Position numbers and translations under genes: made by a program. A model generated the notes under the pieces. The model was given only the letters and a program-made list of their open reading frames with translations. It was not told the DNA's origin and searched no databases. A stretch of 54,432 nucleotides of DNA from positions 1 through 54,432 of the forward strand of contig JALOTF010000010.1 of the NCBI GenBank assembly GCA_025458025.1, written 5' to 3'. Origin of the DNA: Beijerinckiaceae bacterium. Its GTDB lineage: Bacteria; Pseudomonadota; Alphaproteobacteria; Rhizobiales; Beijerinckiaceae. Positions within the stretch are counted from its first letter, which is position 1, and every line of letters starts with the position of its first letter. Of this stretch, positions 7,067 through 26,929 are shown piece after piece.

Positions 7067-7069
7067 CCT

Positions 7070-7735: not shown

Positions 7736-7750
7736 GTCGATCTCCAATCC

Positions 7751-7799: not shown

Positions 7800-7817
7800 T
7801 CTTTTGGAGGATGATGC

Positions 7818-10474: not shown

Positions 10475-10809
10475 TCTTCGTTGTCCTTCCCTTGCATTCT
10501 GCAGGTGAGAGGACATTTGCCACCCTAGTTTGTATCAGCCCCCAAGGGAAAGGTTCAATTTTTATCGATCTGCCCGGACCGTATTCGAAAAAATATTGAT
10601 TTAACCGTCTTGTTCAGAATGCGATTAACAAGAAGTTTGAATCATTCCGTTGTGTGGTATGACTTTGATCGTGAGTGAAGCAGCTTTAGCGCGCTGTTTT
10701 AGTCTGGCGTTGCATCGCTCCTTGGTCTCCGCAGGCCGTTTTTTGACCTGATAGCGGGGCAGGGGAGGGTTAAAGCAAGACTACCCCGTTCTTCTGACAG
10801 CAACTTGGA
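10475..10809. other. Intergenic region, AT-richer than its surroundings
   Basis: A stretch of 335 bases between the repetitive-protein gene and the thioesterase, both on the minus strand. It is clearly richer in A/T (around 10560-10640) and probably contains the promoter of the repetitive-protein gene. I see no confident -35/-10 pair, terminator or open frame. Confidence 0.4.
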
Positions 10810-11184
10810 TCACCGCGGAAACAACGGTTTGAAAACCCCGTTCGCGCGAGCCAGCATCACGCCATCGCTGTCGCGCACCTCTCCCTCACAGAATGCCAGG
10901 TTGCGCCCTGCGCGCAGCACCCGACCCTCGGCGACAAGTTCGCCTTCTCCGGCGGCGAGAAACGCGACGTGAAGATCAACCGTGAGGAAGGAGATGGCCC
11001 CTTCGACGGCATCGCGGGCCGCACATCCCAGCGCAATGTCGAGCATGGTCATCAGCAAGCCACCATGGGCCTTGCCCCGCGTGTTGGAGACCGCCGGACT
11101 GGTGGAGGCCTCCAGCCGGATTGTTCCCGGCGAAGATTCGATGAAGCGAATACCGCAATGCTCCATGAACGGGATAGGTTGCAT
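10810..11184 (-). CDS. PaaI-type hotdog thioesterase
   Basis: A 124-residue single hotdog-fold protein of the PaaI/YdiI type, which hydrolyses acyl-CoA or aryl-CoA thioesters. The family core is VSNTRGKAHGGLLMTMLDIALG (about 31-52), where HGG lies at the start of the hot-dog helix, followed by TVDLHVAFL. It sits at the edge of a CoA-dependent catabolic island on the opposite strand and could release CoA from dead-end thioesters. Confidence 0.8.
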   Translation of the reverse strand: MQPIPFMEHCGIRFIESSPGTIRLEASTSPAVSNTRGKAHGGLLMTMLDIALGCAARDAVEGAISFLTVDLHVAFLAAGEGELVAEGRVLRAGRNLAFCEGEVRDSDGVMLARANGVFKPLFPR

Positions 11185-11427
11185 AGGGCCTCTCTTGTAG
11201 GTGTGCCGAGTGCTGCGTCATGCCCAGAATAGCATCGCTCGCGAGGGGATGCTCATGCTGGCGCCGTATAGCGACCGATACCGTCAAGCCATCTTCACAA
11301 GGCCCGATCCCGGTCTTTAGGCTGTCTATCAGCATGCGGAAGGCCGATGCGCCGGTTGGGCTGTAAAGCCGCCCGGGATGCCATCGGAGGACTTTCCTGC
11401 TCCGACTTCGCCAGAGGAGATCACGAC

Positions 11428-12810
11428 GTGAAATTGCCCATCCACTCACCAGATCTTGTCCCCGTGCTTCAGCCTTATCCCGTGGCAGTGAAGCATGATG
11501 GGCTGGTGTTCCTCTCCGGTGTGCGGCCGGGAACGACAAAGGCCCGGAAGTTCGGCTTCGACGACCTGCCTGCATCCTGCCAGACGCGCAAGCAGGGCTT
11601 TGGCCTTCCGGATCGGGTTGAAGGCGAGGTTTCCGCCGATTCCTGGAGCGTGCACACCGCGCTTGATGCCGTGTTGGCCGCTGCGGGCACCCGCGACAAC
11701 CAGATCCTGCGTCAGCATGTCTGGCAGCGCGACAAGCGGTTCTTCCCTTGTTACGAGCGCGTCCGCGCCGTTTTCCAGCCCAAGCCCTCGCCGAGCAGCG
11801 GGTTGGGTGTGGCCGAGGTGGTGGGCGGCGCCCGCGACTGGATAGGCATCGATGCGATCGCGGTGGTCCCGGGCGAGAACCCCGCGCGCCCCGAACGTCA
11901 GGTGACATCCGAGGTCTACGATCCGCGGCTACCATCGGCCTCGCATTATTCGCAATCCGTCACATCCGGCGATCTGCTCTTCACCGCCGGTCACATTCCG
12001 ATTAAGACGACCGAACCCGGCAAACCGCTGGTGCAGGGTTTTGACGATGTGCCGGAAGAGGGGCGCTTCCTCGCGACCGGTCGCAGCCATCCCGACAGCC
12101 GCGATGGTCCGATCGCAGCCCAGACATGGTTCGTCTATGCCGAATTGCGCAAGCTTCTTGCGACATCCGGCATGACGATGGACGATGTTGTTCTTTCGAC
12201 CGTCTATCTCGCGGATCCGCGCGATTTTCCGGTCTTCCATCGCATGCATCAGCATTTCTTCCCGAACCAGACGGCGGCCTTGGCTGTCACCGGCTTCGAT
12301 GAGGTCGGCCATCGGGGCTGCCGGATCGAGATCGAGCTGACCGCCGCGAAGGATGCCGCCTCGCGTCGCGAGCTGGTCAGCTGGGGTTCGGGCACGCCCC
12401 CGTTCGCCGCGCCCGCAGCGGTGCGGATCGGGTCGCTGATCTTCTATTCGGGCATGGTGGGGCTCAATCCCGAGGGATCGCTTGTCACCGGCGCTGCCGA
12501 TGTTCCGCCCGAGGGGCGTGCATTGGTGGCGCGCCTGGAAGAGATCGAGAGCCGTCCCGGCTTCGCTGCCCAGACCTGGGCCAGTTTCGCCCGGCTCTCG
12601 GAAGCGGCCAAACGCGCCGGCTCTGACCTGAAAGACCTACTGAAGATGACGGTCTATCTGCGTTCCGCCAGCGATCTGCCGGTCTTCGAGGCTGTGCGGC
12701 GCCATTTCATCGCCGATGCGGATCTTCCCGCCTTTGAATGCGTGGCCATTCTGGGGCCGGGACCGGTGCGGGAAGCGGAAATCCAGATCGAAGCGATCGG
12801 GGCGGCGTGA
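11428..12810 (+). CDS. Triple-domain RidA/YjgF-like protein
   Basis: A 460-residue protein made of three RidA/YjgF-type domains in a row (about 5-150, 160-310 and 325-460). Each has the fold's pattern: an early strand such as GLVFLSGV, LLFTAGH or LIFYSGM, a helix following AQTW, then TVYL with a late strand. Usual RidA proteins are single domains of about 130 residues that form trimers, so this looks like a covalent trimer. RidA proteins deaminate reactive enamines, and related members act in ring-cleavage pathways. GTG 11428 follows AGAGGAG by 8 bases and is preferred over an upstream ATG without a ribosome site. It starts a plus-strand row with the VOC and BKACE genes. Confidence 0.85.
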   Translation: MKLPIHSPDLVPVLQPYPVAVKHDGLVFLSGVRPGTTKARKFGFDDLPASCQTRKQGFGLPDRVEGEVSADSWSVHTALDAVLAAAGTRDNQILRQHVWQRDKRFFPCYERVRAVFQPKPSPSSGLGVAEVVGGARDWIGIDAIAVVPGENPARPERQVTSEVYDPRLPSASHYSQSVTSGDLLFTAGHIPIKTTEPGKPLVQGFDDVPEEGRFLATGRSHPDSRDGPIAAQTWFVYAELRKLLATSGMTMDDVVLSTVYLADPRDFPVFHRMHQHFFPNQTAALAVTGFDEVGHRGCRIEIELTAAKDAASRRELVSWGSGTPPFAAPAAVRIGSLIFYSGMVGLNPEGSLVTGAADVPPEGRALVARLEEIESRPGFAAQTWASFARLSEAAKRAGSDLKDLLKMTVYLRSASDLPVFEAVRRHFIADADLPAFECVAILGPGPVREAEIQIEAIGAA

Positions 12811-12814
12811 GGCA

Positions 12815-13294
12815 ATGATCACGCCTCCGGTGCCCGCTTCAGCTCCATCCGGTCCCTTGCAGGGATACCGGATCGACCACCTCGGTGTGGCCGTCGCCGA
12901 TCTTGATCGGGCGGCCCGCTTCTACCGCGATGTCCTCGGCTGCCCGGTGGGCGAGCCGGTTGTCCCTCCCGGACAGGGCATCGCGGTGGTGTTCGTCACC
13001 TTTGCCAACACGCGGGTGGAGCTGATTGCTCCGACTTCGGCAGTCTCTCCCCTGCCGGATCTGCTGGAGAACCAGACTATCAACCATTTCCTGGAGCGCT
13101 CGCCACTGGGGGGGCTGCACCATGTCTGCTACGAGGTCGATGATCTTGAAGCGGTCATGATGCGCCTCGCGCAGGCCGGCGCGCGCATTCTCGGGAAGGG
13201 AAAGCCCATCATCGGGGCGAGCGGCAAGCCCATTGTCTTCCTCGACCCGCGGACGGCTGAAGGTACCTTGATCGAACTGAAGCAGGGCGCCTGA
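12815..13294 (+). CDS. VOC-superfamily protein, methylmalonyl-CoA-epimerase-like
   Basis: A 159-residue protein with paired beta-alpha-beta modules of the vicinal oxygen chelate fold. The first module is YRIDHLGVAVADLDRAARFYRDVLG and the second starts GGLHHVCYEVDDLEAVMM. The final LIELKQG supplies the usual glutamate ligand. The pattern is closest to methylmalonyl-CoA epimerases and lactoylglutathione lyases. It begins 4 bases after the RidA-like gene's stop. In this setting it may epimerise a CoA-bound intermediate. Confidence 0.85.
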   Translation: MITPPVPASAPSGPLQGYRIDHLGVAVADLDRAARFYRDVLGCPVGEPVVPPGQGIAVVFVTFANTRVELIAPTSAVSPLPDLLENQTINHFLERSPLGGLHHVCYEVDDLEAVMMRLAQAGARILGKGKPIIGASGKPIVFLDPRTAEGTLIELKQGA

Positions 13295-13350
13295 GCATCG
13301 TCGCGTCGTCAAGTCTCCCGCCAGCCGGGAATTCGAGAAGCAAATACGCC

Positions 13351-14181
13351 ATGAAACCCGTTATCATCGCTGTTGCCATCACAGGTTCGCTGCCGCGCAA
13401 GGCAGATAATCCTGCTGTTCCGATCCTGCCCGAAGAGCAGATTCGCTCCACGGCGGAAGCCTTCGAGGCTGGCGCGTCGCTGGTTCATATCCATGTGCGC
13501 AACGATGATGAAACGCCGTCCTCATCGCCCGAACGGTTCGGGATCGTACAGGCGGGTATCCAGCGCCTGTGTCCCGGCATGATCGTGCAATTCTCGACCG
13601 GAGGGCGGGGACGCGATCCCTCGCAACGCGGCTCCTCGCTGTATCTTCGGCCGGATATGGCCTCGCTCTCGACGGGATCGGTCAATTTTCCGTCGATTGT
13701 CTACGAGAACCAACCCCCGCTGGTCGAACAGCTCGCCACCCAGATGAAGGAGCATGAGGTTCTGCCCGAGATCGAGATTTTCGATCTGTCGCATCTGCAC
13801 GGCGCCCGCCGTTTGGCCGACAAGGGTCTGCTGGGCGAGCATCCGCATATCCAGTTCGTGATGGGCGTGAAGAATGCGCTGCCGGCGGAAGAACGCCTGC
13901 TCGATCTGATGCTGGGCGAGATGCGCACCCTTTTCCCTCATGCGACATGGAGTGCCTGCGGCATTGGGGCCAATCAGTCCACCGTGATGCGGTGGGCGTT
14001 GGTGCGTGGCGCGGACGGTATTCGGACCGGACTCGAGGACAATATCCGCCTCTCGAAACAGCGTCTGGCTGCATCCAATGCCGAACTGGTCGCCCAGGCG
14101 GTCGCGGAGATCCGACTGGCCGGCCGCGTTCCGGCGACACCGGCAGAGGCCCGCAAAACCCTTGGTCTGCGCAGCGCCTGA
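13351..14181 (+). CDS. BKACE family beta-keto acid cleavage enzyme (DUF849)
   Basis: A 276-residue BKACE protein. The family exchanges a beta-keto acid with acetyl-CoA to give acetoacetate and a new acyl-CoA; the founder, Kce, uses 3-keto-5-aminohexanoate. The zinc-binding HxH lies at H46 and H48 (LVHIHVRN), and E229 in RTGLEDN is the likely third ligand. The barrel pattern SLSTGSVNFP and FDLSHLHGAR is typical. It lies 56 bases after the VOC gene. The natural substrate is not predictable, but it implies a beta-keto acid intermediate in this pathway. Confidence 0.9.
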   Translation: MKPVIIAVAITGSLPRKADNPAVPILPEEQIRSTAEAFEAGASLVHIHVRNDDETPSSSPERFGIVQAGIQRLCPGMIVQFSTGGRGRDPSQRGSSLYLRPDMASLSTGSVNFPSIVYENQPPLVEQLATQMKEHEVLPEIEIFDLSHLHGARRLADKGLLGEHPHIQFVMGVKNALPAEERLLDLMLGEMRTLFPHATWSACGIGANQSTVMRWALVRGADGIRTGLEDNIRLSKQRLAASNAELVAQAVAEIRLAGRVPATPAEARKTLGLRSA

Positions 14182-14553
14182 CCCATCCCCCGCTCGAAGA
14201 ACGGATCAACGGTCCGGGCCAAAGCACTGGACCAGGATCGTGGGCCAACACGGCTGGCCAGCGTTGCTGGCCTCTCCCGGCTTGATGATGCAGGACAGGC
14301 TATCCGAACCGCCCAATCGTTGAGGGCATGGGCCTGAATATTCAGGCCCATCGATGGTCCGGATCGCGCGGAATGCAAAACTCCCCTGCATGCTGATCAT
14401 TGGCGCTATGATTCCGCTCTGTTGAGAGTTCACGATGAAATCAGAAAATCTTTCGCAAAATCAAAATGTTAAAACTGTTTCTCGACATTCTCGGTGTTCT
14501 GTCGTCTCATGGGTGGGGCTCGCGCGGAAAAAAAGACTAACGGAGGTGCGACG
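14182..14553. other. Intergenic region before the LysR gene
   Basis: A 372-base stretch without a gene. It holds a short hairpin GGCCAGC-GTT-GCTGGCC (14256-14272), a perfect 24-base palindrome (14328-14351) and an A/T-rich section (about 14435-14475) that may contain the LysR promoter. Confidence 0.5.
14328..14351. promoter_or_regulatory. Perfect 24-bp palindrome upstream of the LysR gene
   Basis: ATGGGCCTGAAT is followed directly by its exact reverse complement, with no loop. No T-tract follows, which argues against a simple terminator. It lies about 200 bases before the LysR start codon, so it may be an operator or end the BKACE transcript by another mechanism. Confidence 0.55.
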
Positions 14554-15468
14554 GTGGAGCTTCGGCAAATTCGCTATTTTATCCAGGTCGTGAAGCTCAA
14601 GAGCGTTACAAAGGCAGCCCGTGCTCTCAACATGGCGCAGCCGGCGCTGAGCCGTCACATCCACGCCCTGGAATACCAATTGCGGACGCCGCTCTTCGTT
14701 CGGACAGCGCGGGGCGTGGTGCCCACCGAAGCCGGGGCAAAACTGGCGACGCTGGGAGAATCCCTGCTCGGCCTCGTGGATCAGATCCGCGAGCAGGTCG
14801 AGAATTCCCCGGAGCAGATCGCGGGGCATGTCGTGATCGGCATGCCGCAATCGGTCTCCGGCATTCTGGCGCCCGCGATCATCGATTATTGCCAGCAGAA
14901 CTACCCTGAAATCTCGCTGCGGATCACCGAGGGGTTGAGCATCTTTCTGGAGGAATGGCTCAGCCAGGGGAAGATCGATCTGGCCGTGCTGACCCGCCCG
15001 ACCGAGGTTTCAGCCATCGAATACACTCCTCTGGTGCGCGAGCAGATGGTGCTGGTCGGCCATCCGAAACGGATGCCGATCGGCATGACGGAAATCCCGT
15101 TTCAGGATCTCGCATCCTTTCCGTTCGTGATCGCGGACGGATTTCGCAAGCTGATCGACCCTTGGGCGACCCGTCTCGACATGAAGCTCAATTATGTCAT
15201 CGAGGTCGACAGCATTGTTCTGATCAAGGAACTGGTCACGCGCGGACTGGCATTCTCGATCACGCCCTATGGTTTTGTGCACAAGGATGTCATGAACGGC
15301 ACCTTGGGTGCCTTACCGATTGTGGATCCGCCGATCACGCGTGATCTCGTCCTGGCCTTCAACACGCGGCGGACGATGTCGGCCGCCGTCAAGATCGTGC
15401 GCCAGATCACGACAGAGCAGGTGGTTGGGCTGCAGCTCACATCGAGCCGGAAGGTTTATGCCCCCTGA
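14554..15468 (+). CDS. LysR-family regulator of the catabolic island
   Basis: A 304-residue LTTR. The winged helix lies at about 1-60 (VTKAARALNMAQPALSRHIHALEYQL). The effector domain has the usual pattern GHVVIGMPQSVSGILAPAI and LVTRGLAFSITPYGF. GTG 14554 follows GGAGG by 8 bases; a longer upstream frame has no ribosome site. It sits in the same orientation between the BKACE gene and the ligase gene, so it probably responds to a pathway acid or CoA ester. The inducer is unknown. Confidence 0.88.
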   Translation: MELRQIRYFIQVVKLKSVTKAARALNMAQPALSRHIHALEYQLRTPLFVRTARGVVPTEAGAKLATLGESLLGLVDQIREQVENSPEQIAGHVVIGMPQSVSGILAPAIIDYCQQNYPEISLRITEGLSIFLEEWLSQGKIDLAVLTRPTEVSAIEYTPLVREQMVLVGHPKRMPIGMTEIPFQDLASFPFVIADGFRKLIDPWATRLDMKLNYVIEVDSIVLIKELVTRGLAFSITPYGFVHKDVMNGTLGALPIVDPPITRDLVLAFNTRRTMSAAVKIVRQITTEQVVGLQLTSSRKVYAP

Positions 15469-15600
15469 GCGGTGCATGCCCGGTCATGATGTTCTTGATA
15501 TGATGCCCATGCCAAAGCAGTTTTTCCGCCTGCCCTGAACCGGCTGCTAGTCTCTCCGAACAAGAACTTCTTCCAGCAAGGAAGAGTCGGAGACGCGCCC

Positions 15601-17589
15601 GTGACCTATGTGTGGCAACCCACTTCGGAACTGATCGAGAGGACAACCCTGTCGGCTTTTCTGCGGCGCCATGGCATCGCCGATCAGGATGCGCTCTGCC
15701 GCGAAGCGGATGCACGGCCGGCCTGGTTCTGGGACGCGCTGCTCCGTTTCTTCGAGATCCGTTTCGACCAGCCCTATTCCAACGTTCTTGATGTATCGCG
15801 TGGAATTGAATGGCCGGTCTGGTGCGAGGGTGGCACCACGAACATCGTTACCAACTGCCTTCTGCGTCATCGCGGATCGCCGATCTGGGATCGGGATGCG
15901 ATTATTTGGGAAGGCGAGGGCGGCGCGGTCATTCGCTGGAGTTTTGCGCGGCTTGATGCCGAAACGGCCCGCCTTGCGACAATTCTGCGCCAGCGGGGCA
16001 TTCAACAGGGGGATGTCGTCGGCCTCTATTTGCCCATGCTCCCGGAGGCTGTTGCTACCTTCCTCGCCATTGTCGAAATCGGCGCAATCGCGATGCCGAT
16101 GTTCTCCGGCTTTGGTCCCCAGCCGCTGTTCGACCGGCTGTCGGATTCAGGCGCGAAGGCGATTGTTACGTGTCCGGGGACCGTGCGTCGCGGCAAGCCG
16201 GTTCCGATGCTGGATACCGTGCGGTCGGCGATCGCCGAGCTGCCCATGCTGCATACGGTCGTGGTTCTGGATCGTGCCGGTGACGCACAACCGGGGGCGG
16301 GACGCGAGATCGTTCTTTCGACCGCGGATGAACCGCCGCAGCGCGAGCGCGAGCCGGACATGCTGCCCGCCGAAACGCCAGCCATGCTCATGTATACCTC
16401 GGGCACCACGGGCAAGCCGAAGGGCACCGTTCATACCCATTGCGGAATTCTCGCCAAGAATGCCCTCGATATGGGCCTCTGCATCGATCTCCAGGCCTCC
16501 GACCGGCTGTTATGGATGAGCGATATGGGCTGGATTGTTGGCCCCAAAGTGTCGGTGGGCTGCACATTGCTCGGAGCCACGCTGGTTCTGGCAGAAGGTA
16601 CGCCGGACTGGCCGGAATCCAACCGCATCTGGCGGCTTTGCTCGCGTCATGGTGTGTCGGTGGTCGGCATCGTTCCAACCGCCGTGCGCCAGATGATGCG
16701 GACCACGACCGATCCGCTGGAAGGCACCGATCTTTCGCGCCTGCGCACTGTGATCTCCAGCGGTGAGCCATGGACCCCCGAGGCCTGGACCTGGTTCTTC
16801 GAGACAATCTGCAAGAAGCGCATCCCTATTCTGAACTATGCCGGCGGCACGGAATGTGGTGGCGCCATTCTCATCGGCACCCATCACAAGCCCCTCAAAC
16901 CCTGCGCCTTCGGCGGTCCGGTTCCCGGCAACGGAGCCGATGTGGTCGATGCCTCCGGCGTTTCGCTGCCGGCGGGGCAGGTGGGTGAACTGGTGATGCG
17001 TCGCGCGACCATCGGCGCGACGCGCGGCCTCTGGAACGATCCCCAACGCTACATCGAAGGCTATTGGCAGGTGATCCCCGGAATGTGGATACAGGGTGAT
17101 CTCGCCTCGCGGGACGAGGAGGGCCTTTGGTATCTCCATGGCCGCTCGGATGACACGATCAAGCTGGCCGGAAAGCGGGTCGGCCCTGCCGAGATCGAGG
17201 CTGCCCTGATCGCCAGCGGGCTCGTGGCGGATACCGCCGTGGTCGGCATTCCCGACGATCTGACCGGCTCGGCCCTGCTCTGTGCCTGCATCGCCGCCGG
17301 CCCTGTCGAAGACGGGCTCGCCAAGCGGATATCGGATGTGCTCGCGCAGACTTTCGGCGCGCCGTTCCGCCCCAAACGCGTTCTTTTTGTCTCGGATCTC
17401 CCCAGAACCCGCAACCAGAAGATCATGCGGCGGGTCGTACGCGCCCTGGCGACTCATAAGCCGACCGGAGACCTGACATCCCTGGCCAATCCCGACGTCG
17501 TCGAGGAGCTCCGTCAGGCCTTCGCTCACCTCGAAACCGGTTCAGCCGGTTCTTCGCCTGTTTCCCATCCATCTGCGACACATAAATGA
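15601..17589 (+). CDS. Acetoacetyl-CoA-synthetase-like acyl-CoA ligase
   Basis: A 662-residue ANL-superfamily ligase that would activate a carboxylic acid to its CoA thioester through an acyl-AMP. The AMP-binding loop is YTSGTTGKPKG (265-275), and the catalytic lysine is K607 in NQKIMRR. The N-terminal domain (WFWDALLRFFEIRFDQPYS) resembles acetyl- or acetoacetyl-CoA synthetases. The start is GTG with GGAG about 9 bases upstream. The next gene follows after 9 bases. It is the likely entry enzyme of the pathway; the acid is unknown. Confidence 0.88.
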   Translation: MTYVWQPTSELIERTTLSAFLRRHGIADQDALCREADARPAWFWDALLRFFEIRFDQPYSNVLDVSRGIEWPVWCEGGTTNIVTNCLLRHRGSPIWDRDAIIWEGEGGAVIRWSFARLDAETARLATILRQRGIQQGDVVGLYLPMLPEAVATFLAIVEIGAIAMPMFSGFGPQPLFDRLSDSGAKAIVTCPGTVRRGKPVPMLDTVRSAIAELPMLHTVVVLDRAGDAQPGAGREIVLSTADEPPQREREPDMLPAETPAMLMYTSGTTGKPKGTVHTHCGILAKNALDMGLCIDLQASDRLLWMSDMGWIVGPKVSVGCTLLGATLVLAEGTPDWPESNRIWRLCSRHGVSVVGIVPTAVRQMMRTTTDPLEGTDLSRLRTVISSGEPWTPEAWTWFFETICKKRIPILNYAGGTECGGAILIGTHHKPLKPCAFGGPVPGNGADVVDASGVSLPAGQVGELVMRRATIGATRGLWNDPQRYIEGYWQVIPGMWIQGDLASRDEEGLWYLHGRSDDTIKLAGKRVGPAEIEAALIASGLVADTAVVGIPDDLTGSALLCACIAAGPVEDGLAKRISDVLAQTFGAPFRPKRVLFVSDLPRTRNQKIMRRVVRALATHKPTGDLTSLANPDVVEELRQAFAHLETGSAGSSPVSHPSATHK

Positions 17590-17598
17590 GGCTATGAC

Positions 17599-18780
17599 AT
17601 GCGTAGACAAGCTCCTCGCGCGGGTCAGAACTGGATCTTCGACAATTTCATCAAGCTGACGGATGATGAGGATATCCTCCATCCCGGCATGATGGGGGTT
17701 CGGCTCGAACGCGGCTTCAAATATGCCGATATGGAGCGCGTCTTTCATCGCGTGAAAGGTCGCCGCTCGTTCCCGCGGGAATGGGCGCGGCAGGCGGCAC
17801 GGCAGGAGGCCTATGCCGACGAGGCCAAGGCCCGTGGGCATCAGGTCACGGCGAGCCAGCAATTCCACCGCGCCGCACTTTATTGGGGTCGAGCGCAGCA
17901 TCTGATCCCGGTTGACGGTCATCCGAAGAAGATCGAGGCGCATCGGCGCATGCAGCGATGCTATGCCGAGATGATCGCGCTGATGGATGGCTCGATCAGC
18001 GAGCATGTCATTCCGTTCGAGAACGGCAAGAATGTCTATTGCATCGTGCATCGTGCGCCGGGACCTGGTCCGAAGCCGACCGTGCTCTACACGCCGGGCA
18101 TGGATGCCACGAAGGAAGATTTTCCCAATCCCTTCAACAACGAGTTCACCCGCCGCGGCATGAACATCGTGGCGATGGACGGCCCCGGCCAGGCCGAGTG
18201 CAACATTAATCAGGTCTGGCTCGATATCGGCAATTATGCGCGCGCCGGCAGCAAGGTCCTCGATTTCATCGTGGGTCTGCCGGAGGTCGATGCCAGCAAG
18301 ATCGGTGTTTTCGGAACCAGCATGGGCACGCGCTACGGCGTGGAGGTTGGTGCTGCTGATCCGCGCGTGAAGGCGGTTGTGGGGCAGATGCCCTGCGTTG
18401 GCCCCAGCGATGTCATCTTCCAGCAGGCCCAGCCGAACTTCAAACGCATCCACATGTACATGGCCAACATCAAGGATGAGGCCGAGTTCGACGCCTACAT
18501 CGACCGCATGGATGAGAATTTTGTCCGTGCCACGCAGAGCCTTCGCTGCCCCTATCTGCTGGTCGGCGGTGACATGGACGAACTCTGCCCCCCCGAAGAC
18601 ATCGAAGCCTTCATGAACCAGCTGAACTGCCCGAAGGAGCTTTGGCTCTACGAGGATGTGTTCCATCCCGGCGGCGAAATCGCGGCAGATGCCTATCCGG
18701 CCATCGCCGACTGGATGTGGGACGTGCTGCATAACGGGCGCCCCGCCGGCCATGATCGCCGCCTCAACCTCATTCCCTGA
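17599..18780 (+). CDS. Alpha/beta hydrolase, FrsA/C-C hydrolase-like
   Basis: A 393-residue alpha/beta hydrolase with a long N-terminal helical region (about 1-140), as in the FrsA and 2,6-dihydroxypseudooxynicotine hydrolase group. The catalytic set is S241 in GTSMG, D325 or D327 in GGDMDE, and H356 in VFHPGGE. Some members of this group cleave carbon-carbon bonds next to a ketone, others are esterases. Between a CoA ligase and a BadI-like hydratase, a C-C bond cleavage or lactone-opening role fits. It is 9 bases after the ligase. Confidence 0.85.
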   Translation: MRRQAPRAGQNWIFDNFIKLTDDEDILHPGMMGVRLERGFKYADMERVFHRVKGRRSFPREWARQAARQEAYADEAKARGHQVTASQQFHRAALYWGRAQHLIPVDGHPKKIEAHRRMQRCYAEMIALMDGSISEHVIPFENGKNVYCIVHRAPGPGPKPTVLYTPGMDATKEDFPNPFNNEFTRRGMNIVAMDGPGQAECNINQVWLDIGNYARAGSKVLDFIVGLPEVDASKIGVFGTSMGTRYGVEVGAADPRVKAVVGQMPCVGPSDVIFQQAQPNFKRIHMYMANIKDEAEFDAYIDRMDENFVRATQSLRCPYLLVGGDMDELCPPEDIEAFMNQLNCPKELWLYEDVFHPGGEIAADAYPAIADWMWDVLHNGRPAGHDRRLNLIP

Positions 18781-18800
18781 CATCAGAACCGGAGTAACAC

Positions 18801-19733
18801 GTGATGACAGCCGCCATGCCGACTGAACCGTACAAGGACATCATCTTCGAGGTGATCGACCAGGTCGCCTGGATCACCATCGACCGGCCGCATGTGCTCA
18901 ATGCCTGCCGCGAATTGACGCTGGACGAGATCACGCGCGCCGTCATCTCGACGCGCAACGACGCCTCCATCGCCTGCATCGTCATCACCGGCTCCGGTGA
19001 TCACGCTTTCTGCTCGGGCGGCGACTTCTCCTCGATGATGCGGCTCAACTGGGTGGTCGCCACCCATTGGAATGACCGCATGCTGAATTGCGCCATGGCG
19101 ATCCGCGGCGTTTCCGTGCCGGTCATCGCCATGGTCAATGGCTGGTGTATGGGCGGTGGCCATGAACTGGCGCTGTGGTGCGATATCGTGGTCGCTTCCG
19201 ACAACGCGATCTTTGGCCAGTCCGGCGCCAAGGTCGGCGCTTGCCCCACCGTGGGTGCGACGCAGTACATCCCACGCATCATCGGCGAGCGCCTCGCCCG
19301 CGAGATGATTTTCTGCGCGCGGCGCTTTACCGCCCATGAGGCGGTGTCGATCGGTCTTGCGAACCATTGCGTGCCGCAGGCTGGCCTCCGCGCCAAGACC
19401 CTGGAACTCTGCGAATCCATCAAGGGCCATAGCGGCCAGACGATCCGCATGACCAAATGCTCGCTCAACAGCGAGTCGGATGAACTCTACGCCTCGTGGC
19501 GGGCCGGCATGGAATTGCTGGCGCATGTCTGGGGCTCGGAGGAGTCGCTTGAGGGCATGAATGCCTTCGTCGAGAAGCGGAAGCCCGATTTCAATCAGTT
19601 CCGCATGCGCAACAAGAAGATGGTCGAGACCTACCTGGAAGGCATCGACTGGTCCGACGAGACGGAAATCAAGGAAGCTTTTCGCAAGAAGCAGGCTGCC
19701 GGTGCCGGAAAGCCGGTCAAAGGGCACTCATGA
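18801..19733 (+). CDS. Enoyl-CoA hydratase/isomerase family, BadI/MenB-like
   Basis: A crotonase-fold protein of 309-310 residues; the start is GTG 18801 or ATG 18804, both downstream of GGAG. It has the oxyanion-hole motifs (CSGGDFSSM and GGGHELALWCD). The segments GQSGAKVGACPTVGATQYIP and SLEGMNAFVEKRKPDF are closer to BadI (2-ketocyclohexanecarboxyl-CoA hydrolase) and MenB than to ordinary hydratases. BadI opens a ring by reverse Claisen cleavage of a beta-keto thioester. A ring-opening role is therefore plausible but inferred. Its stop overlaps the next gene by 4 bases (ATGA). Confidence 0.88.
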   Translation: MMTAAMPTEPYKDIIFEVIDQVAWITIDRPHVLNACRELTLDEITRAVISTRNDASIACIVITGSGDHAFCSGGDFSSMMRLNWVVATHWNDRMLNCAMAIRGVSVPVIAMVNGWCMGGGHELALWCDIVVASDNAIFGQSGAKVGACPTVGATQYIPRIIGERLAREMIFCARRFTAHEAVSIGLANHCVPQAGLRAKTLELCESIKGHSGQTIRMTKCSLNSESDELYASWRAGMELLAHVWGSEESLEGMNAFVEKRKPDFNQFRMRNKKMVETYLEGIDWSDETEIKEAFRKKQAAGAGKPVKGHS

Positions 19734-20839
19734 AAATCACGCGCATTGAATCGCTGCCGCTTGCGCTGCCCCTGCGCAAGCCCATGCTGATGGCGGGCAA
19801 CCGTTTCGAGACCCTCGAAACGGTGCTTGTCCGGCTTGAGACGGAAGGCCGGCATGCCGGCTGGGGCGAGGCTTCGGTTGCCCCGTTCCTGACGGGCGAA
19901 ACCATGGCCAGCATCGTGGCAGCGGTTCACCATATCAGCCATGCGCTGCGAGGTGCCCGGATCAGCGAACTCGGCGTCGTGTCGGATCTCATCGCGGGCT
20001 GCATTGTTGGGAATCCCGCAGCCAAGGCCGCGGTCGAGGTTGCCGCGCATGATGCGGCAGCCCGTGCGATCGATGTGCCGCTTCATGCCCTGCTGGGCGG
20101 AGCGCGCGTGAAGGAACTTCCTTGCCTGCATCTCATCGGCAATGGCGATCCCGATCGCGATATCCGTGAGGCGGAAGCCAAGGTCGGGGAAGGTTTTACC
20201 GCGATCAAATACAAGGTTGCGAATGGCGATCTCGCCACGGAGGCCGATACGCTGGTGCGCCTGCGTGAGGCGCTCGGCCCCTCCATCATGCTCTGCGCGG
20301 ATGCGAATGGCGGCTGGTCGCGTCGTGATGCCACCGCCTTCGTGCGCCTGGCGGATGCCTCGATGGCGGATTTTCTCGAGCAGCCCGTGGCCAGCGAGGA
20401 TCACGATGGTATGGCGCTCGTGGCGCGAAGCGGTCGTATCCCTGTGGGCGCGGACGAATCCGTGCACGCGATCGGCGATATCCGCAGGCTGATCGAGAGC
20501 GGCGCTGCCGCGGGTGGTTCGTTCAAGATCATGAAACTGGGTGGCATTCGGCCTTGCCTCGAAGCCTGCCAGCTTTCCGCCGCGCTGGGTGGAGAGGTCA
20601 ATCTCTCCGGTAAGGTCGGCGAAACAAGCATTGCCAATGCCGCGACGCTGGCCTTGGCGGCTGCATGGGGAAAGCCTTCCTGGGGGCTGAGCCTCACGAA
20701 TGGATATCTCGCGACCGACCCGGTCCAGGACCCGCTCCAGCTCCAAGCAGGGCGAGCACAAATTCGGGACGGTGCGGGATTGGGCATCAGAGTTGACGAA
20801 ACACGGATCGAGCGCATGGCCATTCGGCCAGCCGCCTGA
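19730..20839 (+). CDS. Enolase-superfamily enzyme, MLE/mandelate-racemase-like
   Basis: A 369-residue enolase-superfamily protein. It has the KxK motif K160 and K162 (AIKYKV), metal ligands D191 (CADANGG), E217 (EQPV) and D242 (GADES), and lysines K266 and K269 on the opposite face (FKIMKLGG). That layout is the muconate-lactonizing-enzyme subgroup, which includes lactonizing enzymes, epimerases and N-acylamino-acid racemases. It is translationally coupled to the hydratase. It may cycloisomerise or epimerise the substrate. Confidence 0.88.
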   Translation: MKITRIESLPLALPLRKPMLMAGNRFETLETVLVRLETEGRHAGWGEASVAPFLTGETMASIVAAVHHISHALRGARISELGVVSDLIAGCIVGNPAAKAAVEVAAHDAAARAIDVPLHALLGGARVKELPCLHLIGNGDPDRDIREAEAKVGEGFTAIKYKVANGDLATEADTLVRLREALGPSIMLCADANGGWSRRDATAFVRLADASMADFLEQPVASEDHDGMALVARSGRIPVGADESVHAIGDIRRLIESGAAAGGSFKIMKLGGIRPCLEACQLSAALGGEVNLSGKVGETSIANAATLALAAAWGKPSWGLSLTNGYLATDPVQDPLQLQAGRAQIRDGAGLGIRVDETRIERMAIRPAA

Positions 20840-20896
20840 CGATCGTGGAAAACTAACAAGAGGCGCAGCCAGCGCTTTGATTGCATGGAGAAAAGC

Positions 20897-22063
20897 ATGA
20901 CTAAAAGATCTGCATCTGGACTCTCCCGTCGCGGCATTCTGGCTGCCCCTCTGGTTCTGGGCATGCCCTCCGTGATCGGGCGCGCATTCGCGCAGACCGA
21001 ACCGCTTCGCTTCGGCGTGGCTGACCCTCTGACCGGGCCTTCCGCCATCTTCGGCCTCGATCAGATGCAGGCCGTGCGCTGGGCGGTGGAAGACATCAAT
21101 TCGGCCGGCGGCGTGCATGGCCGCAAGCTGGAAGCCATCATCGTCGATCATCAGGCCAAGCCCGATGTCGGCATCGCCGTCGTCACCCGCCTGCTTCAGG
21201 TGGACAAGGTGCCGACCTTCATCACGGCCTTCAGCAACGTGGTGAAAGCGGTGGCGCCCATCGCCAACCGTGAAAAGGCCCTCATGCTCAGCGTGGGTGC
21301 GAATTCGCCGGACATCAAGAATCTTGGCGATTACGTCTATACCACCTTCCCGCTGGCCGATGTGGACATGCGTGCGCTGGGAAGCTGGCTCTACAAGTCG
21401 CAGAACAAGCGCCGCGCGGCGGTGCTTTATGTGAACCACGAAACCGGAACAGAGGGCGCTAAGGTTTTCTCGGCGGCCTTCAAGGAAGCCGGCGGCGAGG
21501 TTGTTCTCAATGAATCCTATGAGGAGCAGCGCTCGGACTTCACCGGTCTTGTCCTCAAGGTGCGTGCCGCCAACCCGGATATCGTTCACATCCACAGCGT
21601 GATCAGCGACTTCACCGCGATTGTCGCGCAGATGCGCCAACTCGGGCTGAACACCCAGGTCACCAGCTTCCAGACCGCCTTCAATCCGAAGATGATCCAG
21701 GAGCTTGGCAAGGCCTCGGAAGGCATTATCGTGACCGCGATGGCGCCTTCGGCGGAAGACAATGCCAATGTGCCGAAATACCTTGAACGCTGGCAGGCGG
21801 CCTACAAGCGCGAACCCATCGGACTGCCTTACACGCAGTACTTCCACGATGCGCCTTACATCCTGGCCGCGCTCTTCAAGCATGTGCTCGACCAGAAACA
21901 GGCCGTCACCGGCGAAAACCTGCGCAAGGCCCTGCTCGCGATCAAGACTTTCGACCTTCCGTTGACGAACCGGATCACCTTCAACGACGACCATACCGTC
22001 AACGCGCCAACCTATTTCTGGCAGGTGAAGGACGGCAAGTTCCAGGTTGTCGGCAAGCTTTGA
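20897..22063 (+). CDS. livK: Branched-chain-type ABC transporter substrate-binding protein
   Basis: A 388-residue periplasmic binding protein of the LivK type (family 5/6). The N-terminus has a twin-arginine-like signal (SRRGILAAPLVLG, cleavage after RAFAQ). The mature part begins EPLRFGVADPLTGPSAIFG. GGAG lies 6 bases before ATG 20897, which is preferred over an ATG 12 bases further upstream that lies inside that ribosome site. It starts the five-gene importer set after the enolase-superfamily gene, so it probably binds the island's substrate, which may be an aromatic or other acid rather than an amino acid. Confidence 0.9.
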   Translation: MTKRSASGLSRRGILAAPLVLGMPSVIGRAFAQTEPLRFGVADPLTGPSAIFGLDQMQAVRWAVEDINSAGGVHGRKLEAIIVDHQAKPDVGIAVVTRLLQVDKVPTFITAFSNVVKAVAPIANREKALMLSVGANSPDIKNLGDYVYTTFPLADVDMRALGSWLYKSQNKRRAAVLYVNHETGTEGAKVFSAAFKEAGGEVVLNESYEEQRSDFTGLVLKVRAANPDIVHIHSVISDFTAIVAQMRQLGLNTQVTSFQTAFNPKMIQELGKASEGIIVTAMAPSAEDNANVPKYLERWQAAYKREPIGLPYTQYFHDAPYILAALFKHVLDQKQAVTGENLRKALLAIKTFDLPLTNRITFNDDHTVNAPTYFWQVKDGKFQVVGKL

Positions 22064-22082
22064 TTAAGAAAGGCGAAGAGCA

Positions 22083-23033
22083 ATGGATCTAACGCTCGAT
22101 CTGGCCGCGCAACTCACCTGGACTGGCCTTGCGAGTTCGTCCTCCTATTGCCTCTTCGCCTTGGCCTTCGCGCTGGTGTTGAAGGTCAACCGCATCTGGA
22201 ATTTCGCCCAGGCCGGTCTGATGGTGGTCGCCTATTTTGCGATGTTCATCGCCTTCCGCTGGCTTGGGCTCTCGCCTCTGCCGGGTGCGATCCTCGGGGC
22301 AATAACCACAATTCTGGCGGCTATGGCGCTGGAATACTGGGGATTCCGCATCTTGCGACAGCGGAATTCCTCCGTCCTGACCTTCTTCATCTTCACCATC
22401 GCAATGTCGCAGTTCCTGATCTACATGGCGGAACTGATCTTTGGCACCGATCCGAAGACCTTGTTCCCGTCGATCATCGCGCCGGTCCGCTTTGTTGGCC
22501 CCGTGGTTGTCAGTGACTGGGATCTGATCGCGCTCTCTCTGACCGTGACACTTGTGGGGGCGCTGTGGCTGTTCCTGCGCAAGACGCGCGAGGGCAAGGC
22601 GTTGATCGCCGTTTCGGACGAGCCTGATCTCGCCGAAATGTACGGCATGAACAAGGATCGTGCGTATCTGGTCTCGATGGCCCTGGCGGCGATCCTGATG
22701 TCGGCCGGCATGTATCTGATCGGTACCAAGGCCGCGATCTTCCCGTCGACCCCGCTCAGTCAGTTCATGATCTTCGCGGTGATTGCCACCATCATCGGCG
22801 GCATTGGCAACATCTTTGCTGCCGGGATTGCCGGGATCTTCCTCGCCTTGTTGCAGTCCTACAGCATCCTGGTGATCGCCTCGAAATGGCAGATCCTGCT
22901 GCTGTACATCCTGATTTTCGTTGTGATCATCCTGTTCCCGCAAGGGGTGAAACTCAAACTCGGCAAGCGCGGACCGGCCCGCAAAGCCGGACAGCTGCCC
23001 CCGGCGGATGACGTTGCAGAGAAAGCATCATGA
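22083..23033 (+). CDS. livH: Liv-type ABC transporter permease (LivH)
   Basis: A 316-residue inner-membrane permease with about eight hydrophobic helices. The family pattern is FALAFALVLKVNRIWNFAQAG and, near the end, FAVIATIIGGIGNIFAAG. It pairs with the LivM-type permease, whose ATG overlaps this stop by 4 bases. Confidence 0.9.
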   Translation: MDLTLDLAAQLTWTGLASSSSYCLFALAFALVLKVNRIWNFAQAGLMVVAYFAMFIAFRWLGLSPLPGAILGAITTILAAMALEYWGFRILRQRNSSVLTFFIFTIAMSQFLIYMAELIFGTDPKTLFPSIIAPVRFVGPVVVSDWDLIALSLTVTLVGALWLFLRKTREGKALIAVSDEPDLAEMYGMNKDRAYLVSMALAAILMSAGMYLIGTKAAIFPSTPLSQFMIFAVIATIIGGIGNIFAAGIAGIFLALLQSYSILVIASKWQILLLYILIFVVIILFPQGVKLKLGKRGPARKAGQLPPADDVAEKAS

Positions 23034-23947
23034 TCGAGTTCCTCCTCACTCTGGCCATTCTGGCCGGAATCAATGTGCTGCTTGCCTGCGGCTTCAACCT
23101 GATCCTCGGCTATGGCGGTCTCGTCAGCGTGGCGCAGCCGGTCTTCTATGCGATCGGGGCCTATTCGTCGGCTCTGCTCTCGATGAAGCTCGGGCTTCCC
23201 GTGCCGCTCGCCATGGTTCTGGGAGCGCTGATAGCAGCGATCGCCTCGTTCGGATTGTCGCTGCCCTCGCTCCGGGTTTCAGGCGATTATCTCGTGATCG
23301 CGAGCATGGGCTTCCAGCTTGGCATCATCCACATCATCAACAATGTGGAATTCACGGGTGCGGCCAGCGGCCTCTCCGGCATTGTCTCGGCGATTGAATC
23401 GCCGTGGCGGTCGCAGATCTACGCGGGAACGATCATTGCCATCTGCGCGGTGACGATCCTCGCCATTCGCTGGCTGGTGACCGGCCCCTATGGCCGCGCC
23501 ATCACGGCCATGCGGAATGACGAGGAGGTTTTCGCCTCCCTCGGTCGCGATGCGGTGCATATCAAGGTGACGCTGTTTGCGGTCGGCTCGGGCATCGCGG
23601 GCCTCGCCGGAGGGCTTTACGCCCATTACTTCTTGTTCCTGACCCCCGACCAATACGGCATCTTCTCCTCGGCCACCTTGTTGACGATGGTGGTTGTCGG
23701 CGGTGCGGCCACGGTGCGCGGCCCGGTTCTCGGGGCGATCTTCCTCACCGTTCTGCCGGAGGCGATCCGGTTTCTCAATCTGCCGATCGCGGTCATGGCT
23801 CCGTTGCAGGGGGTGATCTTCACGGGACTGGTGATCCTGTTCCTGTTCGTCAAACCCGAGGGCCTTTTCGGCAGCAAATCCGGCGGCGGGCTCGATGCCT
23901 GGCAGAGCCGGGCCATGTCCTCCTCGATGCGCAAGGGAGCCAAGTGA
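23030..23947 (+). CDS. livM: Liv-type ABC transporter permease (LivM)
   Basis: A 305-residue permease. The family motif GFNLILGYGGLVSVAQPVFYAIGAYSSAL appears at about 21-50, and VVGGAATVRGPVLGAIFL comes late. Its stop overlaps the GTG start of the next gene, so the four importer genes after livK are translated as a coupled unit. Confidence 0.9.
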   Translation: MIEFLLTLAILAGINVLLACGFNLILGYGGLVSVAQPVFYAIGAYSSALLSMKLGLPVPLAMVLGALIAAIASFGLSLPSLRVSGDYLVIASMGFQLGIIHIINNVEFTGAASGLSGIVSAIESPWRSQIYAGTIIAICAVTILAIRWLVTGPYGRAITAMRNDEEVFASLGRDAVHIKVTLFAVGSGIAGLAGGLYAHYFLFLTPDQYGIFSSATLLTMVVVGGAATVRGPVLGAIFLTVLPEAIRFLNLPIAVMAPLQGVIFTGLVILFLFVKPEGLFGSKSGGGLDAWQSRAMSSSMRKGAK

Positions 23948-24702
23948 TGCTGAGCGCGCGCGGGCTGACCAAACATTTCGGCGGCGTTGTCGTGGCCGAT
24001 TCTCTGGATATCGATCTCAATCCGGGCGAAATCGTCGCGCTGATCGGACCGAACGGGGCCGGCAAGACAACGTTGTTCAACATGCTCACGGGCTTTGTCC
24101 GTCCGGATGCGGGCAGCATCGTTTTCGACGGGCAACGGGTGGAGAAACTCCCCTCGCATCAACGGGCCCGTCTGGGGCTTGCACGCACCTGGCAACGCCC
24201 CCGGCTTTTCGAAAGCCTGTCGCTTGTCGATAACCTGATGATCGCGGATCGTGATTATCCGGGCGAGCGCCTGATCGAAATGGTGTTCCGGCCTCAACAT
24301 GTACTGGATTGCGAGGAGAAGGGGCGCGAACGGGCCGAGCGGCTTCTGGATCGGATCGGGCTTGGCGCGCGTGCCGAAGGCCGTTCGACGCGGCTCTCCT
24401 ACGGGCAGCAGAAGCTCGTGGGCCTGGCCCGCGCCCTGATGAATGACGGCCGCTGCATCCTGCTTGACGAGCCGATGGCGGGTGTCGAGGGGCGGACGGT
24501 GGAGACCATGAAAACGGTTGTGCGGGACGAGGCTGCTGCCGGAAAGGCCGTGTGCATCGTGGAGCACAATATCGGCTTCATCCGCGACATCTGCGACCGG
24601 GCGATCTTCATGTTCAATGGCAGGATCGTCGCGGAAGGTTCCGTGCATGACCTGCTGGCGGACAAACGCCTCACTGCCTTGTATTTCGGATCACATTCAT
24701 GA
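23944..24702 (+). CDS. livG: Liv-type ABC transporter ATPase (LivG)
   Basis: A 252-residue ATPase. Walker A is GPNGAGKTTLFNML, the signature is LSYGQQKLVGLARAL and Walker B is CILLDEP. The stretch between Walker A and the signature is typical of LivG. The start is GTG 23944, or the ATG one codon on at 23947, both overlapping the livM stop. Confidence 0.9.
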   Translation: MMLSARGLTKHFGGVVVADSLDIDLNPGEIVALIGPNGAGKTTLFNMLTGFVRPDAGSIVFDGQRVEKLPSHQRARLGLARTWQRPRLFESLSLVDNLMIADRDYPGERLIEMVFRPQHVLDCEEKGRERAERLLDRIGLGARAEGRSTRLSYGQQKLVGLARALMNDGRCILLDEPMAGVEGRTVETMKTVVRDEAAAGKAVCIVEHNIGFIRDICDRAIFMFNGRIVAEGSVHDLLADKRLTALYFGSHS

Positions 24703-25397
24703 GCGAAGCTCCCATTATGTCGGTGACCGGTCTCTCGGTCAGCTATGGCCCGCTCGTGGCCGTTCGCGATGTCACGACATCTTTTGCCCGCGGCGGGATG
24801 ACCGGAATTTTCGGTCATAACGGGTCTGGAAAATCGACCTTCCTCAAAAGCCTGATCGGGGCCGGCGGCCGGATCGATGGGCAGGTGACGTTCGAGGGGC
24901 GGCCTGTTGCGCCCGGTCGCACGCATGAGAACGTCATGATGGGCATCGCCATCGTGCCCCAGTCGAAGAACGTGTTCCCCAGCCTAACGGTGCGCGAATG
25001 CCTCGAAGCCGCGGGCCTGCGCTCCGGCAAGGAGGGCTTCGAGCGGGTTTACACCCTGCTGCCGATCCTTGCGGAACGCGGGGCCCAGCGGGCAGGCTCC
25101 ATGAGCGGAGGCGAGCAGCAATTGCTGGCAGTCGGCATGGCCCTGATGACACAACCCAAGGCGATCCTGCTTGATGAGCCCACGGCTGGCCTTTCGCCGG
25201 TCGCGGCGGATCGCGTCCTGGCAACCCTGTCTGACGTCAATCGCGGCTTCGGCACAACGATCATCCTCGTCGAGCAGAATGTGATGTCAGCGCTGAAGAT
25301 GGTCGATCGCGCCGTGGTGTTCCGGTCGGGTTCGATTGTCTTCGATGATTCCGCCAGAACCTTGCGCAATCAGGCCGATCTCTGGGCCACCTTCTGA
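24699..25397 (+). CDS. livF: Liv-type ABC transporter ATPase (LivF)
   Basis: A 232-residue ATPase. Walker A is GHNGSGKSTFLKSL, the signature is MSGGEQQLLAVGMAL and Walker B is AILLDEPTAG. It overlaps livG by 4 bases and closes the importer operon. Two hairpins follow within 180 bases. Confidence 0.9.
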   Translation: MSEAPIMSVTGLSVSYGPLVAVRDVTTSFARGGMTGIFGHNGSGKSTFLKSLIGAGGRIDGQVTFEGRPVAPGRTHENVMMGIAIVPQSKNVFPSLTVRECLEAAGLRSGKEGFERVYTLLPILAERGAQRAGSMSGGEQQLLAVGMALMTQPKAILLDEPTAGLSPVAADRVLATLSDVNRGFGTTIILVEQNVMSALKMVDRAVVFRSGSIVFDDSARTLRNQADLWATF

Positions 25398-25781
25398 AGA
25401 TGCCGACTTTCCCGCCCAAAAGAACGGGCGGCGATGTGCAGAGGCAAACAGGAAATCGCCATCGGGTATGCCGACGGCCCCAAGTGTCGTCAGGATTGCG
25501 TCCCAGACATCAGGCCGGTGTCTGATGTTATTCAGTTGAAGGGCATGGCATGGACTCTCGTCGTCCATGCCATTCACCGTTGATAGGGGCGAACTTGCCC
25601 CGCCAAAGGCCGTGAAAGCTAAACGGCGGCTGATCCAATCCAGCGCGATGCAGCTCCCGATCGGCAAGGCCTCCACAACGGCCAATCTGCGTCCCCGGTA
25701 ATAAAAATACAACTTATGAGTGTATATTCCCGTGATCCTGATGGCCGTCTCCGGTCGTTGGTGTCAGACGGGGGAACCGAG
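25398..25781. other. Intergenic region with two hairpins, livF to FIST gene
   Basis: About 380 bases with no supported gene. It has two hairpins (25507-25573) and an A/T-rich section at about 25701-25732 that may be the promoter of the FIST gene. A minus-strand open frame crosses it but matches nothing I know. Confidence 0.5.
25507..25573. repeat. Two consecutive inverted repeats after the liv operon
   Basis: The first is ACATCAG-N8-CTGATGT (25507-25528). The second has 11-base perfect arms, ATGGCATGGAC (25545-25555) and its reverse complement (25563-25573), around a 7-base loop. They lie 110 and 148 bases after livF. Neither is followed by a T-tract, so they may stabilise the liv mRNA end or bind a regulator rather than terminate on their own. 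Confidence 0.6.
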
Positions 25782-26924: not shown

Positions 26925-26929
26925 CTGCC

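Follow-up and report, generated by a model that had tools for sequence, protein, structure and literature searches.

Several described systems stand close to the locus reported here. In Methylobacterium, a BKACE has been proposed to convert beta-ketoadipate and acetyl-coenzyme A (acetyl-CoA) into succinyl-CoA and acetoacetate (PMC12379598, PMC8963497). Asp163 of MenB is reported to be essential (PMC3637252), and hydrolases of the Ayg1p type are described as taking off acetyl or acetoacetyl groups (PMC12139152). In the Rid family, Arg105 of RidA is the imine-hydrolase residue, Rid4-7 proteins that do not carry this Arg are held not to hydrolyse imines, and chains of three RidA domains (3x-RidA), such as EF_0115, form a known architecture (PMC4433059). 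In this article, a gene cluster at positions 10810-25397 of a 54,432-nucleotide stretch of DNA from a Beijerinckiaceae bacterium (assembly GCA_025458025.1, contig JALOTF010000010.1; the whole stretch is referred to as the window) is described, in which a BKACE, a crotonase next to MenB and BadI, an alpha/beta hydrolase, a triple RidA-like protein and a LivKHMGF importer are encoded together. The reading that we favour, and which we hold with about as much belief as doubt, is that of a horizontally moved, probably inducible cluster for the uptake of an acid and its CoA-dependent hydrolytic breakdown to beta-ketoadipate or an analogue, which the BKACE would convert into succinyl-CoA and acetoacetate.

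All the genes that a preliminary description, made without database searches, had named for this interval are there, ten proteins from the thioesterase to LivK being identified by model scans (Pfam, NCBIfam) and LivH, LivM, LivG and LivF by eye from their translations, with orthologues in two related loci, L012 and L013, that are introduced below. The starts of the LysR and triple RidA genes were set by homology, for the latter also by an AGGAG before the start, and differ from the first start in the list of open reading frames. The features are as follows.

10810..11184, minus strand: hotdog-fold (4HBT/PaaI-type) thioesterase (PF03061 at 2.4e-14; TIGR00369 over its cut-off)
11218..11298, no strand: non-coding block in the divergent PaaI/Rid3 promoter region, aligned with L012
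11428..12810, plus strand: triple RidA-like chain (3x-Rid, Rid3), 460 aa (PF01042; alignment with E. coli RidA/YjgH)
12812..13294, plus strand: VOC protein of the methylmalonyl-CoA epimerase type (TIGR03081)
13351..14181, plus strand: BKACE, 3-oxoadipate type by model (PF05853; NF053568)
14554..15468, plus strand: LysR-type regulator (PF00126, PF03466)
15508..15528, plus strand: conserved element CATGCCRANNCNGTKTTTCCG between the LysR and ligase genes, found in three of three clusters
15601..17589, plus strand: acid-CoA ligase resembling acetyl/acetoacetyl-CoA synthetases (PF00501, PF13193, PF16177)
17599..18780, plus strand: alpha/beta hydrolase, FrsA-like, of the C-C hydrolase (2,6-dihydroxypseudooxynicotine hydrolase/Ayg1p) type by fold and sequence
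18801..19733, plus strand: crotonase, its clade adjacent to MenB/BadI and its active site different, by models and alignment
19730..20839, plus strand: enolase-superfamily enzyme (MR/MLE; MLE subgroup; PF13378, PF02746)
20885..22063, plus strand: LivK-type solute-binding protein (PF13458)
22083..23033, plus strand: LivH-type permease
23030..23947, plus strand: LivM-type permease
23944..24702, plus strand: LivG-type ATPase
24699..25397, plus strand: LivF-type ATPase (the L013 copy is cut by the contig end)

The cluster was compared with relatives obtained by scanning genome contigs with a two-sequence alignment of the hydrolase, a procedure based on two short peptide patterns that may miss relatives and that returned 18 loci. 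Two of these carry the cluster. L012, from a metagenome-assembled genome (MAG) of the Hyphomicrobiales, has 13 of the 14 window genes (PaaI, Rid3, VOC, LysR, ligase, hydrolase, crotonase, MLE and LivKHMGF) with order and strands unchanged, at 59-87% identity, and its BKACE gene is placed after LivF, that of the window before LysR. L013, a contig from the MAG of a beta proteobacterium, has the ten genes from LysR to LivF at 64-87% identity, starting 443 bases before LysR and stopping inside LivF. Identity to the window is 59% for the thioesterase and 79% for Rid3 (both L012), 74% (L012) and 64% (L013) for LysR, and 87% and 85%, respectively, for LivK. In the remaining 16 loci, of which some are short contigs, the hydrolase occurs and the cluster is missing; L017 and L028 encode an MLE (37% identity) close by, and L019, L024 and L025 show only weak matches (25-37%) to LysR, LivG or crotonase. 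Such conserved gene order and orientation across L012 and L013 exceeds what chance would give and marks the cluster as a real unit.

The layout and the non-coding regions add to this picture. The nine genes from the ligase to LivF are separated by -4 to 45 nt, which is an operon layout, the BKACE and LysR genes are 372 nt apart, and the thioesterase gene is divergent from all other genes of the cluster. When 28 pairs of intergenic regions were compared by local alignment, each against 100 shuffles, the score of the LysR-ligase region was reached by 0/100 shuffles for window and L012, 0/100 for window and L013, and 1/100 for L012 and L013. In this region all three clusters have the 21-bp element CATGCCRANNCNGTKTTTCCG, a possible candidate for a regulator or promoter site, and a pattern written from these sites matches once in the window, with 0.00 matches expected. 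The PaaI/Rid3 gap likewise contains a block of 81 bp conserved with L012 (0/100 shuffles); a non-matching pair, the PaaI/Rid3 gap of the window and the VOC/LysR gap of L012, also came to 1/100, as is expected now and then. An ATGC-N8-GCAT palindrome inside this block was considered as a LysR site in its own right and rejected, with one found against 2.86 expected by chance. The promoter regions are conserved, and joint control of both parts of the cluster by LysR goes beyond what this conservation shows. The kept gene order, the operon spacing and the pre-ligase element in three of three clusters agree with the earlier proposal that the genes form a single unit, served by an importer and a LysR gene of its own. 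A different view is that two separate functions are neighbours, with PaaI, Rid3, VOC and BKACE serving one process and the LysR-to-LivF operon forming a complete pathway, as might be taken from the 372-nt gap and the LysR gene between the two parts, from the L013 contig, which has LysR to LivF and no match to Rid3, VOC or BKACE, and from the comparison of the Rid3 and ligase promoter regions of the window, which gave no common motif (as high a score was reached by 90 of 100 shuffles). We consider it unlikely, as in L012 PaaI, Rid3 and VOC immediately precede LysR and a 3-oxoadipate-type BKACE immediately follows LivF, which brings a BKACE up against the opposite flank of the operon.

The cluster is rare. 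Among 297 genomes of the order, ten, that of the window included, have the hydrolase at E 1e-60, with one other above 60% identity; the triple RidA protein was matched at 1e-40 in one of 385 genomes of the class and one of 398 of the phylum, both times its own genome; and the crotonase was matched at 1e-75 in five of 385 class genomes, namely its own and four of one other family, at 71-73% identity. Horizontal gain is consistent with the absence of a hydrolase match at 1e-60 from the two same-genus genomes listed. An insertion test through the flanking genes was discarded, as the flanks lie on different contigs in one of two same-genus genomes and one flank is missing in the other. The plasmid and phage collections searched for a relative of the cluster contained only matches below 60% identity.

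The endpoint of the proposed pathway is indicated by the BKACE, which scores 440 bits on NF053568 (3-oxoadipate:acetyl-CoA acetyltransferase, cut-off 350), the L012 BKACE reaching 486 bits. Together with PF05853 and the pca-type context of relatives, this bears out the earlier assignment of the gene. H46, H48, S82, R225, E229 and D230 are identical in both proteins, and by reference to Kce we take H46 and H48 to be the metal-binding His pair and the other four to be catalytic. The two enzymes are 53% identical, below every other pair of the two clusters. The window BKACE as query (1e-60) matched 41 of 150 genomes of the order, including its own, the best six others at 69-72%, and the L012 BKACE matched 42 of 150, with a top identity of 77%, the window BKACE ranking last but one at 54%. 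Since each has closer relatives elsewhere in the order, the two are not mutual nearest relatives, and a BKACE of the 3-oxoadipate type was probably recruited twice, from different lineages and at opposite ends of the cluster. Neighbourhoods of five window-side and two L012-side relatives were fetched, and among the former the genes of L080 were scanned by model and those of L076-L079 read by eye. The BKACE of L080, 69% identical and in the family of the window, shares one strand with an adjoining PcaB-like gene (below cut-offs) and, after it, PcaDC (469 bits, cut-off 390). On the L012 side, the BKACE of L081 follows PcaH (376.5 bits, cut-off 296.4) and a reading frame standing where PcaG would be expected, and that of L082 lies beside an intradiol-dioxygenase-like gene that is below cut-offs. 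The other relatives have a Rieske oxygenase gene nearby (L079), CoA-transferase and MFS genes (L076, L077), or neighbours in no recognisable pathway (L078). The window genome yielded a single BKACE, the cluster copy, and its substrate is predicted from model, lineage and operon context to be probably beta-ketoadipate.

For the crotonase, a ring opening of the BadI type had been suggested, and with it a classical alicyclic pathway in which a 2-ketocycloalkane-carboxyl-CoA would be hydrolysed. MenB and BadI are indeed its best curated models, it shares 39-40% identity with two annotated BadI proteins, and ring opening is reported for EchA20, a crotonase grouped with MenB (PMC5380842). Its score is, however, 199.2 bits on TIGR03210 (BadI), far below the cut-off of 467.6, and 220.7 bits on TIGR01929 (MenB), where the cut-off is 342.7. 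In columns checked against E. coli MenB, the two annotated BadI proteins and E. coli PaaF and PaaG, the position of MenB Asp163 is held by Pro149, with Pro in six of six clade members and Asp in the one MenB and the two annotated BadI proteins. This Asp of the VGSxD motif is common to MenB and BadI and is presumed to have a role in BadI as well. Tyr258 of E. coli MenB corresponds to Trp244 and Trp184 to Ile in all six aligned clade members, which also keep Glu122 at the position of PaaF Glu109, where MenB and BadI have Val, and have Gly at that of PaaF Glu129. Crotonases with a single Glu include hydratase-lyases, which offer an analogy. As judged from these residues, the clade is without the MenB/BadI signature and without the two-Glu hydratase signature. 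The neighbours of one annotated BadI gene include aliA, aliB and an SDR gene, and the cluster has neither an acyl-CoA dehydrogenase nor an SDR gene. The suggestion of BadI-type chemistry is therefore not upheld, with Pro149 in place of the Asp and the low TIGR03210 score leaving a likeness at family level only, and the alicyclic pathway appears improbable.

The same crotonase clade (70-72% identity) occurs with one or two MLE genes (38-41%) in L035-L038 (G591, G668, G397 and G502), from another alphaproteobacterial family. Pfam matches among the neighbours are 3HCDH, Ldh_2 and SMP-30 genes in L037 and an alpha/beta hydrolase in L036, and CaiB-type CoA-transferase and Gfo/Idh genes were noted by eye. 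These loci represent a second undescribed cluster, which has MLE and crotonase in common with that of the window.

The earlier label of a C-C hydrolase is strengthened by structure prediction. The nearest PDB sequence relative of the window hydrolase is 2,6-dihydroxypseudooxynicotine hydrolase (2jbw, 2.2e-20), presumably an enzyme that cuts a C-C bond. A model built from 19 sequences (mean predicted local distance difference test score (pLDDT) 80.1, predicted template modelling score (pTM) 0.85) has chains of 2jbw, Ayg1p, Wdyg1p and AntI at Foldseek ranks 1-14, 2jbw occupying ranks 1-4 with TMq 0.74-0.76, followed by acylaminoacyl peptidase and FrsA, so that the closest solved folds of the predicted structure would be C-C hydrolases. 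Ser241, Asp327 and His356, a putative triad by position, are found in 19 of 19 homologues, and the score on the PcaD model is 21.7 bits (cut-off 255.85).

Relatives of this hydrolase (63-67%) in L015, L017 and L028, from Rhodospirillaceae/Rhodospirillales MAGs, adjoin an NMT1-like (TAXI-type) receptor gene and a DctM-type TRAP permease gene; the hydrolase family thus stands beside acid transporters of two unrelated kinds. A distant and divergently oriented hydrolase gene (31.5%) on plasmid p2 of Cupriavidus pinatubonensis (L043, 4134-11513) has five Liv-type ABC transporter genes beside it and a LysR gene in the vicinity, an arrangement reminiscent of the hydrolase, importer and regulator of the window. 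L024 (8613-11164) and L025 (4858-7389) each have a tandem pair of hydrolase-family genes and a divergent weak crotonase match.

The remaining enzymes were assigned less narrowly. Among the models listed for the ligase (best 25 of 101), it lies below every cut-off. The MLE-type enzyme scores 168.6 bits on TIGR02534 (muconate cycloisomerase, cut-off 334.95), and its K160, K162, D191, E217, D242, K266 and K269, identical in seven of seven aligned proteins, are taken here to represent the KxK motif and the acidic metal ligands of the MLE subgroup. The VOC protein passes TIGR03081 (methylmalonyl-CoA epimerase; 122.9 bits, cut-off 114.95) and is a probable paralogue, because a better copy (161.7 bits) is encoded elsewhere in the genome. 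At the leucine-site positions, LivK has S117, N140, V239 and Q263, one of the four being kept in a low-identity alignment read by eye; S79, T102, Y202 and E226 of the leucine-binding protein are assumed to bind the amino acid, E226 holding the amino group. A hotdog thioesterase acts after MenB, and the superfamilies of MenH, MenC, MenE and MenB are together here as in E. coli, where menE, menC, menB and menH lie side by side, which would allow a menaquinone-like biosynthetic set leading to naphthoate or a related product. This we find barely credible, given 101.6 bits on the menC model (cut-off 130.55), the shortfall on the menB model noted above (220.7 against 342.7 bits), the missing Asp163, the lack of a MenH or MenE model among the matches listed (for the ligase, the best 25 of 101), a nearest hydrolase fold that is that of a C-C hydrolase and not of MenH, and an importer and a BKACE that point to breakdown.

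Pfam PF01042 matches two stretches of the triple RidA protein, and three domains are recognised by alignment with E. coli RidA and in the order of strands and helices of a low-confidence model (mean pLDDT 55.5, two sequences), which, for these same values, was set aside as evidence of assembly. The Arg of imine hydrolases is absent from three of three domains in the window and three of three in L012, and the alignment shows it in E. coli RidA. An imine-type label thus applies to the protein at family level only, the catalytic Arg being missing from all three domains, and imine hydrolysis is not expected of it. Membership of the RidA family, and the fact that 3x-RidA proteins are known (PMC4433059), could still suggest that the pathway serves a nitrogenous compound, an imine or enamine, with the triple RidA protein as deaminase. 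Such a pathway is highly improbable, given that Rid proteins without the Arg, as here in both window and L012, are not expected to be imine hydrolases according to the same source. In addition, LivK has Gln263 at the position, aligned by eye, of Glu226, which we assumed to hold the amino group.

The favoured reading, breakdown of an imported acid towards the BKACE, can be set out as a sequence of putative steps. The LivKHMGF genes would provide import of one organic acid, and the ligase would form its CoA thioester. The MLE-type and VOC-type enzymes, by their families, may shift protons or a double bond beside the carboxylate or thioester, and the crotonase and the alpha/beta C-C hydrolase, by fold and residues, may carry out hydrolytic cuts or hydrations through which the skeleton is shortened or opened. 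The hotdog thioesterase could then release beta-ketoadipate or a close analogue, which, according to the model, lineage and operon context of the BKACE, would react with acetyl-CoA to give succinyl-CoA and acetoacetate, and a CoA-transferase encoded elsewhere in the genome could activate the acetoacetate. Translations and the model scans of the ten proteins reveal no oxidoreductase gene in the cluster. Its part of the pathway would for this reason be redox-neutral, so that the substrate should already stand at about the oxidation level of beta-ketoadipate plus the part cut off. Compounds within this limit would include 1,3-dicarbonyl acids, cyclic or open, as well as lactone acids and non-aromatic rings, and one may only guess at cyclohexenone natural products or tropane-derived diketones. 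A bolder proposal is an undescribed redox-neutral, CoA-dependent hydrolytic route by which a natural acid that is not aromatic and is probably cyclic or a 1,3-dicarbonyl would reach the beta-ketoadipate node, with a new reaction of the crotonase clade, which retains one hydratase Glu of two and has lost the other as well as the MenB/BadI Asp, and with a non-deaminase 3x-Rid protein; we advance it tentatively, as one more apt to fail than to hold. The literature searched, from which subscription journals were mostly outside coverage, brought up, among others, papers on BKACE, steroids and aromatic catabolism and contained no described pathway with this gene set, which is no proof and is in line with the earlier statement that none is known.

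Several points weigh against this reading. A pca-type operon context was seen for one of five window-side BKACE relatives, most contexts not being pca, and NF053568 may be too narrow, not separating beta-ketoadipate from its analogues. A pcaI/scoA-family CoA-transferase is present elsewhere in the window genome and could act on oxoadipate by the ordinary route, and needed dehydrogenases could likewise be encoded elsewhere, so that redox neutrality would apply to the cluster only. On the L013 contig, with its 443 bases before LysR, the lack of Rid3, VOC and BKACE matches means that this part may be optional or placed elsewhere. The evidence is limited to MAG data. The possibility that the genes belong to known pathways in relatives had been named as a refutation of the proposal; it applies to the BKACE, whose relatives in L080 and L081 stand in the known pca pathway, and not to the other genes, which are together in L012 and L013. 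If the reading is correct, the beta-ketoadipate node gains an entry without an oxygenase in the cluster, and pathway contexts are provided for three groups that are still poorly understood, namely the crotonase clade, FrsA-like hydrolases beside acid transporters and 3x-Rid proteins without the Arg, the probably twice-recruited BKACE making the endpoint directly testable.

Other features surround the cluster. Downstream of LivF, at 25716-28789, a FIST sensor gene overlaps a PAS-GGDEF-EAL gene. At 5980-8222, NnrU-type and Rrf2-type genes lie near each other, a pair that we take to suggest a nitrogen-oxide response near the cluster. The gene at 8423-10516 (minus strand) encodes a 697-aa protein with stretches rich in Asn, Gly and Pro, without a Pfam match at 1e-5 and with 47-53% identical matches in both same-genus genomes searched, and it is overlapped by a 721-aa open frame on the opposite strand. 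Repeats and tRNA in the window, the contexts of H21, H36 and H37, the E. coli ato region and a superfamily paper (PMC1431709) yielded nothing informative.

Compared with known systems, the individual proteins show both likeness and divergence. In EF_0115, too, a single chain carries three RidA domains and presumably amounts to a covalent trimer (PMC4433059), and the 3x-Rid protein of the window differs in lacking the catalytic Arg in all three domains and in sitting in a catabolic cluster. MenB and BadI, at 39-40% identity the best-scoring curated families of the crotonase, are set apart from it by Pro for Asp, Trp for Tyr258, the extra Glu122 and scores far below their cut-offs. For the hydrolase, 2jbw and the polyketide-shortening hydrolases Ayg1p, Wdyg1p and AntI are the nearest solved folds, and the window family keeps Ser, Asp and His in 19/19 members, yet identity is 16-22% and the gene context is another. 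In the deoxyribonate pathway of Pseudomonas simiae, an operon BKACE is also proposed to cleave a beta-keto acid into a CoA ester and acetoacetate; the substrate there is a sugar acid, and the operon has dehydrogenase, lactonase and MFS genes and no crotonase or C-C hydrolase (PMC6365646). The terminal logic, a BKACE at beta-ketoadipate, is known and the upstream part is not. This logic is that of the pca-kce pathway of Methylobacterium, in which a BKACE (DUF849) is proposed to replace PcaIJ and PcaF (PMC12379598, PMC8963497), and the window BKACE and the L012 BKACE have one relative each in a pca-type operon. Unlike that pathway, the window cluster is without ring-cleavage dioxygenase, PcaB, PcaC and PcaD, none of which was found among the ten scanned proteins of 10810-25397, and instead has a CoA ligase, a crotonase, a C-C hydrolase, a VOC protein, a 3x-Rid protein and a Liv importer.

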